Assembly (NCBI GenBank): GCA_030949705.1
Contig: JAUZSF010000003.1
Location: 124,001-188,000 of the forward strand
Reading direction: 5' to 3'
Length of the DNA stretch: 64,000 bases
Source: Robiginitomaculum sp.
GTDB taxonomy: Bacteria; Pseudomonadota; Alphaproteobacteria; Caulobacterales; Maricaulaceae
In this document: piece after piece, positions 29,692 through 37,913 of the stretch
Layout of the letters: each line of letters begins with the position of its first letter
Position numbering within the stretch: the first letter of the stretch is position 1
The notes under the pieces: model-generated
What the model was told of the DNA's origin: nothing
Database searches by the model: none
What the model saw: the letters and a program-made list of their open reading frames with translations, nothing else
Translations under genes and position numbers: made by a program

Positions 29692-29778
29692 GCGGGCGTG
29701 GCGGAATTGGTAGACGCACAGGACTTAAAATCCTGGGATCATTTGATCGTGGGGGTTCGATTCCCCCCGCCCGCACCA
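29692..29778 (+). tRNA. tRNA-Leu(UAA)
   Basis: GCGGGCG/CGCCCGC acceptor stem, long variable arm, anticodon loop CTTAAAA, GGTTCGATTCC T-arm, encoded CCA. Confidence 0.95.
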
Positions 29779-29845
29779 CTTCTTTATTTCGCGGCGCGAA
29801 AAGTGCCGCCGACGGAACGGCAAACTGTGCTGTTTCGAAACCAGC

Positions 29846-30772
29846 TTAGCGCAGGAAGTTCAGAAGCGATAAATTACTCAGGATGGAAAATGTGCGCGCC
29901 GAGGCTTCCACGGCGGTTTGGGCCTGGGAAAGCCGGGTCGAGGCCTCGGCCAGATCAACATCCTCAATATCACCAACCACCTGTTTCAGGATAAGTTTTT
30001 GATCCTCTGCCCGGTTTTGGGCATTTTCAACCCGGTTTTGTATTAAGCCATTTTTCCCGACAACAGTGTTCAGGCCGTCAGCGGCGCTGGTAATGCTGGC
30101 CAGTGTGCTTTCCAGAAACGTTTTCTGCGCCAGAGTCAGGTTGGCCGTAAAGGGGCCGGCGGCGCTGTCATTATAATCCTTGATGGTTTTAATCACGGTC
30201 ATAAGATCGGTGCCCACATCATCGGCCAGAAAACCGATTTCCACCGGGTTGCCTTCGTCTACACGCGCCGTGGCTTTGACCTTGGTGTTATCGAAGATAC
30301 TGGCAATGGTGGGGGCGGCCCCCAGATCATTCAGCGTGTTTATATTAACTGGTGGGGCATCCACACGGCTGCCACCAAAGAGGGCGCGTCCCGCATACGT
30401 CTGGTTCAGCCCGTTTACGGCGCGACCAAAGGCCGATTCCAGTTGTTGCATCAGGGTGATGCCGGAATTTAGCGCTATGGCGTCAATCACCGCTTGGCGC
30501 AAGTCATCGGCCGACCCGGCCACTTCATTCAGGGCCAGATCCTGCGTCGCCAGACGGCCGCTGACTTCCTTGCTGGCCTGAATATAGCCTTCGGTACGGG
30601 TGGCCAAGGCGTGGGTGGCACTTAATGTTCCCAATTGCGGGGCCAGGCCTTTCAGGTCGCTGGATTCCTTGCCGCTGGAAACCTGCTTTTGCGCTTTCAG
30701 CAAATCAGTTTGATTGCGCAATAACTCAAACAGGGCAACCTGGTTGGAAATATTGGTGGCAATACGGGGCAT
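29846..30772 (-). CDS. flgL: Flagellar hook-filament junction protein FlgL (flagellin-like)
   Basis: Flagellin-type N- and C-termini (QKQVSSGKESSDLKGLAPQ; EDVDLAEASTRLSQAQTAVEAS); adjacent to flgK. Confidence 0.88.
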   Translation of the reverse strand: MPRIATNISNQVALFELLRNQTDLLKAQKQVSSGKESSDLKGLAPQLGTLSATHALATRTEGYIQASKEVSGRLATQDLALNEVAGSADDLRQAVIDAIALNSGITLMQQLESAFGRAVNGLNQTYAGRALFGGSRVDAPPVNINTLNDLGAAPTIASIFDNTKVKATARVDEGNPVEIGFLADDVGTDLMTVIKTIKDYNDSAAGPFTANLTLAQKTFLESTLASITSAADGLNTVVGKNGLIQNRVENAQNRAEDQKLILKQVVGDIEDVDLAEASTRLSQAQTAVEASARTFSILSNLSLLNFLR

Positions 30773-33342: not shown

Positions 33343-35316
33343 ATGAGTTTGGATTTTAACATTCTGGCGACGGCAAGCGGCAACGGGGTAAAAACCGGGG
33401 CGGCTTCTTCAGTTGCAGGCCAGAAAGTTTCCGCCAAAGTCTCGCCGCAGAAAAATGGCGCCCACTCTGCCTTTGCCGACCTGCTAAATGCCAGTGTACA
33501 AGCCAATGCACAGGGCGGCTCCGCCGGGGAACTGGCCGGAAAGGTCACAGGTAAAACGAGCGGTAAAACAACAGTCAATGCCCAGTGGTTGCAAAGTACA
33601 GGAAAAAAACCGGCCTTAAAGGGGCACGGATTACAAAGTGACCTGGCCAGCGTACTGAAGCCTGCAAAGGTTGGTGATGAAGGTGAAGAAGCCCTGGTTG
33701 GCGCGACCACCATCCCGGCCAATGCGGCGACATTGGTGGCAAATACCAAAGATCAGTCTGGCAAGAACAAACCTTCGGCAGTGTCAGGTCTGGTCCAGAA
33801 TACTGGCGATGCAGCACACAAGACTGCTAAACAAGGTGTCCAGCCCAATCCCGGTCAGATTCGCCGGTTGATTGGTGTCGGCGGCCTTAATCCATCTGAT
33901 CCGCGGGCCAAGATCCCGGCGATAACAGTTGATCCGATTATTGCCGAATTGGATCCCAAAGGGGGCGTTGCGCCTGCGCCTTCACCCTCGCCAGCGATTC
34001 AGAGCGGCTCGATCGAAGCGGCGCTGGATCCAAAACCCATTACCACACCCCAACCCTCTACCTCTCCCGCTATAAAGGTCGGTTCCGTGGTTAGCGGGCT
34101 TGAGCCTTCTTTAAAAACCACGCCACAGCCTTCGCGAACCCCAGCCATTAAGAATGGTCCGGTTGTTGCCGGGCTGGATGCCAAGACGGTAACCACGCCG
34201 CCGCCATCCAAGAGCCCGGTTATCCAGAGCGGTCCGGTGATTGCCGGGCTGGACACAAAATCCTTTGCCGCCCCTCAGCCGGCGGGTATGCCGGCAATTG
34301 GTGCGGGGCCGGTGATCGCGGAACAGAACCAAAAAGGCGGCGGGTCACAGCCCCCCTCAGGTACACCGGCCATCAAAACCGGGCCCGTGGTTGCAGGTTT
34401 GACTCCTGGCAAAACCATGACGCCCTCTTTGTCCGGCTTGATGCAAGGTCTGAGCACACCCGAAGAAGTACAACAAAAGGCCACCCGTCGGGTAGGCCAT
34501 GGGACTTCTAAAACAAATGCAGCCAAAGGCAGTTTGGCCAAGGCCGGTGGCCAATCTGGTACGAGCAATACGACGGTGTCGGCGGCAAATGCGGGCAATG
34601 TTGCCGCCAATGCAGCATCATTCACCAATGCAAATACGGTTTTGGCCCAGGCCGCCTCGAGCCAGCCATATAATAGCCAGAGCCATGATAACCCAGGTTC
34701 TACGTTACAAAATGGTGCGCCAGCAGGTTTTGCGGGTTTGCCCGATGCGGGACTGGACGGCCGGGTCATCCTTGCCAGCACATCAGTCGACCATGGGCTG
34801 AAGTCTGCGCAAACCCATGACATCGCCCAAAAAGCGACCAATGCAACGTCACATACTCCCCCCCGTCTTGACCAGGCCAGCCTGGCCGGTTTTGCCGCCA
34901 ATATGGCGCAACGGATGCAGGGGGGCGGGACGCGTTTTGAAATTCGTCTGGATCCGGCAGAGCTGGGCAAGGTACAGGTCAAGCTGGAGGTGAGCGCTGA
35001 TAATCGTGTCGAAGCAGTGCTCAGCTCTCATCGTCCTGAAGTCTTGGCGGACCTGCAACGAGGGGCTGATGCCTTGCGCCGGGCCTTGAGCGATATGGGA
35101 TTTGATCTGGGCGCTGACGGATTGAGCTTCTCTTTGGAACAGGGCACCGGCGGTTTTGGTGCTGATCAGGACGCCAGTGGCGCCTCTGGTCTGGCGGGTC
35201 TGGAAGGCACTGAAGCAGAAGAGAATTTGGAGGTTCAGGCCCCCATTCTTGCACAAAGTGATCGTGGATATGGCATGACACGCGTTTTCGCCGGCCGTGT
35301 CGACGTGAGATTATAG
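33343..35316 (+). CDS. fliK: Flagellar hook-length control protein
   Basis: Low-complexity N-terminal/central part; C-terminal FliK domain MQGGGTRFEIRLDPAELGKVQVKLEVSADNRVEAVLSSHRPEVLADLQRGADALRRAL. Confidence 0.88.
   Translation: MSLDFNILATASGNGVKTGAASSVAGQKVSAKVSPQKNGAHSAFADLLNASVQANAQGGSAGELAGKVTGKTSGKTTVNAQWLQSTGKKPALKGHGLQSDLASVLKPAKVGDEGEEALVGATTIPANAATLVANTKDQSGKNKPSAVSGLVQNTGDAAHKTAKQGVQPNPGQIRRLIGVGGLNPSDPRAKIPAITVDPIIAELDPKGGVAPAPSPSPAIQSGSIEAALDPKPITTPQPSTSPAIKVGSVVSGLEPSLKTTPQPSRTPAIKNGPVVAGLDAKTVTTPPPSKSPVIQSGPVIAGLDTKSFAAPQPAGMPAIGAGPVIAEQNQKGGGSQPPSGTPAIKTGPVVAGLTPGKTMTPSLSGLMQGLSTPEEVQQKATRRVGHGTSKTNAAKGSLAKAGGQSGTSNTTVSAANAGNVAANAASFTNANTVLAQAASSQPYNSQSHDNPGSTLQNGAPAGFAGLPDAGLDGRVILASTSVDHGLKSAQTHDIAQKATNATSHTPPRLDQASLAGFAANMAQRMQGGGTRFEIRLDPAELGKVQVKLEVSADNRVEAVLSSHRPEVLADLQRGADALRRALSDMGFDLGADGLSFSLEQGTGGFGADQDASGASGLAGLEGTEAEENLEVQAPILAQSDRGYGMTRVFAGRVDVRL
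33916..34440 (+). repeat. Seven in-frame 75-bp (25-aa) tandem repeats within fliK
   Basis: Units start at 33916, 33991, 34066... with consensus PAIxxGPVVAGLDxKxxTTPxPSxS. Confidence 0.9.
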
Positions 35317-35325
35317 GGTGAATTT

Positions 35326-36000
35326 ATGGCAGTACTAAATGGGCTAGGGTTGAATTCAACGATATCAACTACACAAACGGCGACCGCCGGTCTTGCGAAT
35401 AATTTTGATACGTTTCTTACCCTGCTGACCGAACAACTCAAAAATCAGGATCCGCTCAGCCCGCTTGATTCCACCCAGTTTGTTGACCAACTGGTACAAT
35501 TTTCCGGGGTCGAGCAGCAAATCAATCAAAACAAGAACCTGGAATCCCTGATTAATCTGAATGCCGCCAACTCGGCCACGGCGGCGGTTGGTTTTATTGG
35601 CAAGGAAGTGGATGTGCTGAACACCACGGCCCCGCTCGCCAATGGCAATGCCCAATGGAGCTATGCCACCCAGTCTGATGCCGCCTCGGTGAGTATTCTG
35701 GTCAAGGATGCCAATGGAAAAGTGGTTTTCAAGGCCGATGGGAATACGGCCACCGGTACCCACACCTTTAACTGGGACGGCCGGGACAATGTCGGCACGT
35801 TGTTGGCCGATGGTAATTATGATCTGGAAGTGAGTGCCCTGGATAATGATGGCAATCTGGTTTCCACATCGGTCACCACCACGCGGGTGATTACGGGGGC
35901 TGATTTCTCCGGTACAGAACCGGCCTTGCTGGTGGGCAATGAACGCATTGCCTTTGCCAACATTTTGGCAGTCCGGGAGCGCACAGCACCCGCCATATAA
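35326..36000 (+). CDS. flgD: Flagellar hook assembly/capping protein
   Basis: FLTLLTEQLKNQDPLSPLDSTQFVDQLVQFSGVEQQINQNKNLESL; TFNWDGRDNVGTLLADGNY. Confidence 0.95.
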   Translation: MAVLNGLGLNSTISTTQTATAGLANNFDTFLTLLTEQLKNQDPLSPLDSTQFVDQLVQFSGVEQQINQNKNLESLINLNAANSATAAVGFIGKEVDVLNTTAPLANGNAQWSYATQSDAASVSILVKDANGKVVFKADGNTATGTHTFNWDGRDNVGTLLADGNYDLEVSALDNDGNLVSTSVTTTRVITGADFSGTEPALLVGNERIAFANILAVRERTAPAI

Positions 36001-36087
36001 TGAAACGGGGGTCCAGAATGGTGACCCTTTCTTTGAAGCAGAAGCTCCTCAAGAAAAAAATGAGTGAAAAATCAACAGGAGTTTATA

Positions 36088-37473
36088 ATGTCACTTAATT
36101 CAGCACTGACTATCGGGGTTGCCGGGTTGCGGGCCAATTCGTCCGCCCTTAGCGGTATTTCCAATAATATCGCCAACATCAATACGGTCGGGTACAAGCG
36201 TACACGCTCTGATTTTTCTTCTCTGGTCACGTCTTCATCCAATATTAGCGCACTGGATGCCGGGGCGGGGGTTTCGGCTGGCTCGCAACGTCTGATCGCC
36301 GAACAGGGGCAATTACAATCCTCCAGCGCCTCTACCGATTTGGGTATTGCCGGTGCCGGTTTCTTCGTCGTGGGTACGGCCACGCAAAATGGGGCTACCG
36401 ATGATGCCTTGCGCTTTACGCGCGCCGGTGGCTTTGCCCCCGACGAAAAAGGCTTCTTGCGTAATGCAGCCGGGTATTATTTGCGCGGCTGGCCGGCGCA
36501 ACCCGATGGCAGTTTTGCCACTAATGCTTCGGATATTACGTCGCTCTCTACGGTAAATATTGCCTCGATCAGCGGGGCGGCCAAAGCCACCAGCACCGTT
36601 CAGGTCAATGGCAATCTCAAAGCCAGCCAGGCCATTTCCGCCGCAGAGGCAACTTATGCGGCCGGGACATCGGCCAATAATATGGCGTCGGGCGCGGTAA
36701 CGCCTGACTTTGTGCGCACAGTACAGGTTTTTGACAGCCAGGGCGGGGTTCATAATATCAATCTGGCGTTTCTGAAAAGCAGCGCGGCGGCCAACACCTG
36801 GCACGTAGAGGTTTATGCCAGCCCGGCCAGTGACGTGACCATTGGAGCCCCTCTGGTTGATGGCCAGCTCGCCGTGGGTGATGTGGTCTTTGACGCCAAT
36901 GGCCAGTTTGATGCCGCGGCCTCTATGTCGCTAAACTTGGCCTTTGGGGCTTCATCGGCGGGGGCACCAGCGGCCAGTGCCTTTAACTGGGCCAGCAGCC
37001 TGGGGATCGCCGCACAGACGATTAATGTCAATCTGGGTAGTGCCGGGGCCTCCGGGGGCATGACCCAGTTTGATTCCAATTCAGTGCTGGACTCTTCAAT
37101 TGTGGACGGGGCCATTTTTGGCAGTCTGACCGGGGTTGATGTGGATGATCAGGGTTTTGTTACGGCCAGTTTCTCCAATGGTGTCATTCAGAAGATCTAT
37201 CAGATCCCACTGGCTACTTTCGTCAATCCGAACGGGTTGAATGCCGAAGATGGCGATGCCTTTAGTCTGGCTATTAATTCAGGTTCCTTGAACCTGAAGG
37301 CGGCCGGGAACGGAGTTGGCAAAATTGCTTCTAAAACGCTTGAAGGGTCCAATGTGGATCTGGCCAAAGAGTTCACCAACCTGATTACGGTGCAGCGGGC
37401 CTATTCCGCATCGTCCAAAATCATCACTACCGCGGACCAGATGCTCGACGAACTGATCAGGATCAAACGATAG
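36088..37473 (+). CDS. flgE: Flagellar hook protein
   Basis: ALTIGVAGLRANSSALSGISNNIANINTVGYKR; VDLAKEFTNLITVQRAYSASSKIITTADQMLDELIRIKR. Confidence 0.95.
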   Translation: MSLNSALTIGVAGLRANSSALSGISNNIANINTVGYKRTRSDFSSLVTSSSNISALDAGAGVSAGSQRLIAEQGQLQSSSASTDLGIAGAGFFVVGTATQNGATDDALRFTRAGGFAPDEKGFLRNAAGYYLRGWPAQPDGSFATNASDITSLSTVNIASISGAAKATSTVQVNGNLKASQAISAAEATYAAGTSANNMASGAVTPDFVRTVQVFDSQGGVHNINLAFLKSSAAANTWHVEVYASPASDVTIGAPLVDGQLAVGDVVFDANGQFDAAASMSLNLAFGASSAGAPAASAFNWASSLGIAAQTINVNLGSAGASGGMTQFDSNSVLDSSIVDGAIFGSLTGVDVDDQGFVTASFSNGVIQKIYQIPLATFVNPNGLNAEDGDAFSLAINSGSLNLKAAGNGVGKIASKTLEGSNVDLAKEFTNLITVQRAYSASSKIITTADQMLDELIRIKR

Positions 37474-37511: not shown

Positions 37512-37640
37512 TAATTAAAATTGGACAGGGTTTTTTTTGGAGGAATTCACCAGCTTCATTTGCCGGATATTTAACTTCTTCTCTTAAGGTCACACCCAGA
37601 GACAGCAAATGTCCGATAAACAAGTATGGGAACGGGTGAT

Positions 37641-37913
37641 ATGGGTTACGCACGCAAAACACGAGAAACATTGGTCATTGGTCCAGATGGCAGTCCGCTG
37701 ACATTGGCCGATCTTCCACAGCCGGAAACCCGGCGCTGGGTTATCAGGCGCAAGGCCGAAGTGGTGGCCGCTGTCCGGGGGGGACTGTTAACCCTGGAAG
37801 ACGCCTGCAAGCGCTACCGTCTGACAGTTGAAGAATTTCTGGGCTGGCAGCAAATGATCGACCGTCATGGGCTGGCCGGACTGCGCACGACCAAGGTGCA
37901 GCAATACCGATAA
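37641..37913 (+). CDS. sciP: CtrA inhibitor SciP (DUF1153)
   Basis: LPQPETRRWVIRRKAEVVAAVRGGLLTLEDACKRYRLTVEEFLGWQQMIDRHGLAGLRTTKVQQYR. Confidence 0.93.
   Translation: MGYARKTRETLVIGPDGSPLTLADLPQPETRRWVIRRKAEVVAAVRGGLLTLEDACKRYRLTVEEFLGWQQMIDRHGLAGLRTTKVQQYR

Follow-up and report, generated by a model that had tools for sequence, protein, structure and literature searches.

The fliK gene of a Robiginitomaculum genome contains seven tandem 75-bp units that together form an old array, whose unit motif is kept by purifying selection. We found the array in a 64,000-nucleotide stretch of DNA (the window) from this alphaproteobacterium. It is probably a modular, disordered and non-helical proline-rich segment of the FliK ruler, in which each unit would provide one length step.

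A tandem array in the ruler part of FliK

The gene that carries the array (33343-35316, + strand) encodes a 657-aa protein that we assign as FliK, the hook-length ruler and switch protein. Its C-terminal domain (34903-35148, + strand; aa 521-602) matched the Pfam family PF02120 (Flg_hook) with 55.5 bits against a cut-off of 29.8 (E=5e-15). This was the sole Flg_hook match in the window genome, and the domain, whose core RFEIRLDPAELGKVQVKLEVSADNRVEAV is kept genus-wide, would be the FlhB-binding specificity-switch domain. Directly downstream of fliK lies flgD, which encodes the hook cap (35326-36000, + strand; PF03963 and PF13860), followed by flgE, which encodes the hook protein (36064-37473, + strand; PF06429, PF07559 and PF00460), and then by sciP, fliF, fliG, a fliH-like gene that scored under the NCBIfam cut-off, fliN and flbD. 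Upstream of fliK, flgK and flgL lie on the opposite strand. The C-terminal Flg_hook domain, together with flgD, flgE, fliF and fliG downstream, supports the identification of this gene as fliK in the initial annotation. No NCBIfam model matched the window FliK at E<=0.001, and a profile search of the PDB with FliK returned no solved structure at E<=0.1; given the Pfam match, these results indicate that the protein has diverged, not that it falls outside the family. At another locus, the genome also encodes the switch partner FlhB (G000:C15; PF01312, 397.9 bits). The window has two further minor features. The gene for SciP, a CtrA inhibitor, occupies 37626-37913 (+ strand) between flgE and fliF, and a tRNA-Leu (taa) gene at 29692-29778 (+ strand) overlaps the start of an open reading frame at 29698-29994 that is probably spurious.

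Close to the N terminus of FliK is the short sequence FADLL (aa 44-48; 33472-33486, + strand), a putative gate-recognition motif whose Fxxx-hydrophobic pattern would make it an export signal. Every one of the 12 FliKs of the genus that have an N terminus contains this short motif, in the form F..[LVIFM][LVIFM], between aa 37 and 66. The concept of a gate-recognition motif (GRM) has been described previously (PMC8983047). Salmonella and alphaproteobacterial FliK (formerly MotD) share with the window FliK the C-terminal Flg_hook domain and proximity to flgD and flgE and, by prediction, a long disordered N-terminal/linker region and an Fxxx-hydrophobic N-terminal motif. Salmonella FliK has 405 aa, whereas the window FliK has 657 aa and contains the seven-unit array. 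The FliK family is also characterised by polyhooks when the protein is lost and by hook length that shifts with protein length.

The array (33916-34440, + strand) covers residues 192-366 and sits between the putative export motif and the switch domain, that is, in the ruler or linker part of the protein. It consists of seven head-to-tail units, each of exactly 75 bp (25 aa), in one open frame on the + strand: unit 1, PAITVDPIIAELDPKGGVAPAPSPS (33916-33990); unit 2, PAIQSGSIEAALDPKPITTPQPSTS (33991-34065); unit 3, PAIKVGSVVSGLEPSLKTTPQPSRT (34066-34140); unit 4, PAIKNGPVVAGLDAKTVTTPPPSKS (34141-34215); unit 5, PVIQSGPVIAGLDTKSFAAPQPAGM (34216-34290); unit 6, PAIGAGPVIAEQNQKGGGSQPPSGT (34291-34365); and unit 7, PAIKTGPVVAGLTPGKTMTPSLSGL, with a degenerate tail (34366-34440). 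Our analysis confirmed the seven exact-length 75-bp tandem repeats in fliK that had been claimed, with their coordinates exact, and the proposed consensus, PAIxxGPVVAGLDxKxxTTPxPSxS, proved close to the actual units. Residue matches at a lag of 25 inside the array numbered 71, compared with 14.2 +/- 3.5 (maximum 31) in 20,000 shuffles, and the signals at lags of 50 and 75 were comparable. The 75 bp abutting the array on either side showed no unit match (0-16% amino-acid identity). Across the genus, A or G occupies position 2 of the unit, and position 3 holds I, V or F. Pairwise DNA identity between the window units was 37-60%, and because the units are so diverged, Tandem Repeats Finder and a second repeat search did not report the 75-bp array. 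When we looked for the unit elsewhere in the window genome, we found weak matches only (E 0.017 and 0.32), in frames that a stop interrupts.

An assembly or annotation artefact is exceedingly improbable as the source of this array. The window genome is a draft of 29 contigs, and in a related genome, G017, a contig edge falls inside the array, possibly as an effect of identical repeats. However, the separately assembled genome G002 carries the same seven units in order, and units as dissimilar as those in the window genome (G000) can be neither collapsed nor created by assembly.

Predicted structures of the array had a pLDDT of about 34 and 41, with no helix or strand (models built from 10 and 4 sequences). 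Proline makes up 18% of the array compared with 5% of the other disordered parts, and at this proline content the array cannot form a continuous helix.

Unit number, age and selection within Robiginitomaculum

Fourteen of the 18 genus genomes matched the window FliK. The remaining four (G006, G008, G009 and G012) had no Flg_hook match and are 70-84% complete, making array absence there uninformative. We counted units with a position-weight scan, in which unit scores ranged from 9 to 60 and the 95th percentile of shuffled maxima was about 0-3.5; the scan seeds included units of several counted genomes, so that the scan serves as a counting device and not as an independent discovery. The 25-aa unit was present in 9 of the 14 FliKs. 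There were seven units in G000 and in its nearest genome, G002, six in G007, four in G004, and two each in G011 and G003. G005 had seven, the last of them degenerate, and G017 had at least four when its array was read up to the edge of the contig (three by the scan). In G001 we found seven units that alternate between 22 and 25 aa, and there were none in G010, G013, G014, G015 or the truncated G016. Copy number, which the initial annotation had proposed comparing in relatives, thus differs between species, from none to at least seven, rather than being identical in all of them. The 25-aa period was strict in 31 of 31 spacings across eight genomes, with G001 (22/25) as the exception. In a search of 299 genomes from 54 genera of the order (E<=1e-5), a sample that contained five Robiginitomaculum members, the unit was absent outside Robiginitomaculum. 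A tree of the C-terminal domain, in which most inner branches were weakly supported, placed G013-G016 separately from the array-bearing species.

Several FliKs of the genus have further repeat features. The alternating 22- and 25-aa units of the G001 protein (L009:1174-1671) form a 47-aa higher-order repeat. The FliKs of G013 (L011, aa 116-166) and G014 (L012, aa 58-173) contain weak 22- and 21-aa repeats, respectively, of different sequence. In G017, the contig edge (L005:1-323) falls within an array of near-identical 75-mers.

The G002 orthologue of the window FliK is 83% identical, and its units pair one to one with those of G000, in the same register and with 68-93% DNA identity. The seven-unit state is therefore older than the split between these genomes. 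Between G000 units, pairs of identical residues used the same codon in 74 of 233 cases, compared with 75.0 expected from the codon usage of the gene. Because codon sharing is at the random expectation, silent sites between these units have been randomised. Silent identity would persist after gene conversion or a recent duplication, and so protein-level selection best accounts for the retained motif and spacing. The dN/dS of the array between G000 and G002, 0.17, was lower than that of its flanks (0.37 and 0.32) and higher than that of the C-terminal domain (0.10). We also found that columns conserved in other species were better kept among G000 units (54% vs 36%); a comparison of orthologous dN/dS for conserved vs variable columns is partly circular, and the version with independent columns was weaker (11/84 vs 16/91 replaced codons, conserved vs variable). 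For selection on the period, flank indel counts are a hint only: the array of G005 is young, and G000-G007, with 3 gaps in 318 aa, offers too little signal by itself. The earlier description of an old array with selection on its period holds in that the array is old and both motif and period look selected, although a period of 25 aa is not universal in FliK.

It is unlikely that the array reflects neutral expansion, in which a weakly constrained disordered region gathers tandem duplications without consequence. Such a process would fit the unrelated FliK arrays that come and go within genus f41/g143, as well as a pair of genomes (G329/G336) in which an array adds no FliK length. In Robiginitomaculum, however, old units retain their motif and exact period despite synonymous saturation, and dN/dS is lower in the array than in its flanks. 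The array expanded recently in two relatives: in G005, units 4-6 are 93-97% identical, and in G017 two identical 75-mers adjoin one that is 95% identical. Within this one genus, the array is young and mobile in some species and old and frozen in others.

Array length and a proposed ruler mechanism

Considering 12 related species, we found that array length correlated with ruler length (Spearman 0.81, p=0.0015, not corrected for phylogeny). Ruler length includes the array, and part-whole correlation therefore contributes to this value. Regressing ruler length on array length gave a slope of 0.63, which suggests that some of the added length may be offset elsewhere, in partial compensation. Between array length and the rest of the ruler there was no significant correlation (rho -0.33, p=0.30), and FliK length outside the array varied by more than 100 aa. 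Overall, a length-module function of the array is likely.

In Salmonella, the hook is measured by the N-terminal part of FliK together with a proline-rich linker, the C-terminal domain binds FlhB, and deletions in the proline-rich linker give shorter hooks (PMC6972891). Each residue inserted into the Salmonella ruler shifts hook length by 0.2 nm (PMC6126814), a fully extended chain spans 0.37 nm per residue (PMC6972891), and the channel is 13 Å wide (PMC5288503). For Robiginitomaculum, we infer the following about export, how the chain is stretched in the channel, the size of each step, contacts and the effect on hook length. FliK would be exported intermittently through the growing hook, with its N-terminal end engaging both the tip of the hook and the export gate. 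The length of chain from this end to the C-terminal domain would set when that domain pauses at FlhB, and with the pause the exported substrate would change from hook to filament protein. Every 25-aa unit would add one fixed step to the chain, of between about 5 nm (taking 0.2 nm for each residue, a value that derives from helical inserts and may not apply to a proline-rich chain) and 9 nm (fully extended). Frequent proline would block helix formation and hold the chain extended, and the conserved GPVVAGLD patch probably contacts the channel or hook subunits weakly. While units are young and similar, copy number would shift by unequal recombination; as units diverge, it would freeze under selection on motif and period.

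Tandem arrays in other FliKs

The open-access literature that we searched yielded no description of tandem arrays in FliK. We surveyed 109 Pseudomonadota FliKs, which were chosen by best Pfam score and are therefore biased to strong matches, and found strong tandem arrays of unrelated sequence in 11 of them (10%; L160, L189, L191, L196, L201, L208, L209, L210, L213, L222 and L230). Their periods were 10, 19, 19, 28, 29, 30, 34, 38, 41, 46 and 48 aa. All 11 arrays were central: none began before aa 96 or came closer than 249 aa to the C terminus. These arrays share with the Robiginitomaculum array their location in the protein and their restriction to particular lineages, whereas their unit sequences and periods are unrelated to its unit. 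Survey FliKs with arrays were longer than those without (median 607 vs 487 aa, p=0.0006, uncorrected), and in the G329/G336 pair the array substitutes for length instead of adding to it. None of 71 named FliKs from outside Robiginitomaculum, a nearly all-alphaproteobacterial sample dominated by Maricaulis and Bradyrhizobium, passed the same array threshold. The phenomenon therefore recurs, and the survey suggests that arrays may be present in roughly one in ten Pseudomonadota FliKs. We put forward only tentatively, as a rather unlikely extension, that FliKs repeatedly gain arrays which change hook length by whole units, and that the Robiginitomaculum unit is a selected graduation that contacts the channel.

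Each unit might instead bind FlgE or the FlgD cap, with regularly spaced contacts that slow or register FliK beyond the effect of chain length. We regard this as possible but doubtful. The motif survives full synonymous saturation, Salmonella FliK-N binds FlgD as well as FlgE, and hook length becomes looser when a deletion weakens the interaction with FlgE (PMC6972891). At 0.2 nm per residue, 25 aa would span 5.0 nm, near the 4.5 nm FlgE protofilament spacing (our own calculation, 11 x 4.12 Å, with the rise from PMC5288503), but this match hangs on a per-residue value that is doubtful for a proline-rich chain. The 10-48 aa periods of other FliKs and the 22/25-aa alternation in G001 indicate that a fixed register is not required, and they counter a general rule in which a 25-aa register equals the FlgE spacing. 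It is less probable still that the array acts as a brake on secretion, whereby proline-rich units would slow FliK export and so lengthen the time of the C-terminal domain at FlhB. The proline content of the array is high, and productive switching in Salmonella needs both the FliK secretion rate and a pause (PMC13344023). However, arrays elsewhere are often proline-poor (2-12%) at the same location, and proline as such is therefore not the common factor. A role for the Robiginitomaculum units as length steps in the ruler remains our preferred reading.

Variation in repeat number is already known for a type III ruler, YscP of the Yersinia injectisome, and the Robiginitomaculum FliK array adds a new case. 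The number of 14-, 25- and 46-aa motifs in YscP differs between strains, and YscP size is linearly related to needle length (PMC3469391, citing Wagner 2009). Both proteins are secreted rulers with varying repeat number, although in Robiginitomaculum the variation is seen between species, and YscP serves the injectisome, a different organelle from the flagellar hook. The ruler parts of YscP are described as helical, whereas the proline-rich Robiginitomaculum array cannot be one helix. The basis of the ruler model is work on Salmonella and Yersinia rulers with engineered insertions or deletions; the Robiginitomaculum FliKs form a natural length series in 25-residue steps. Because unit number varies so widely among these species, they offer natural variants able to test whether units set hook length. 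Their proline-rich units would also decouple the number of residues from helical rise, a point relevant to how far the ruler is stretched inside the channel. Within a different genus, f41/g143, five species carry four different FliK arrays (10, 19, 30 and 34 aa) and four species carry none.
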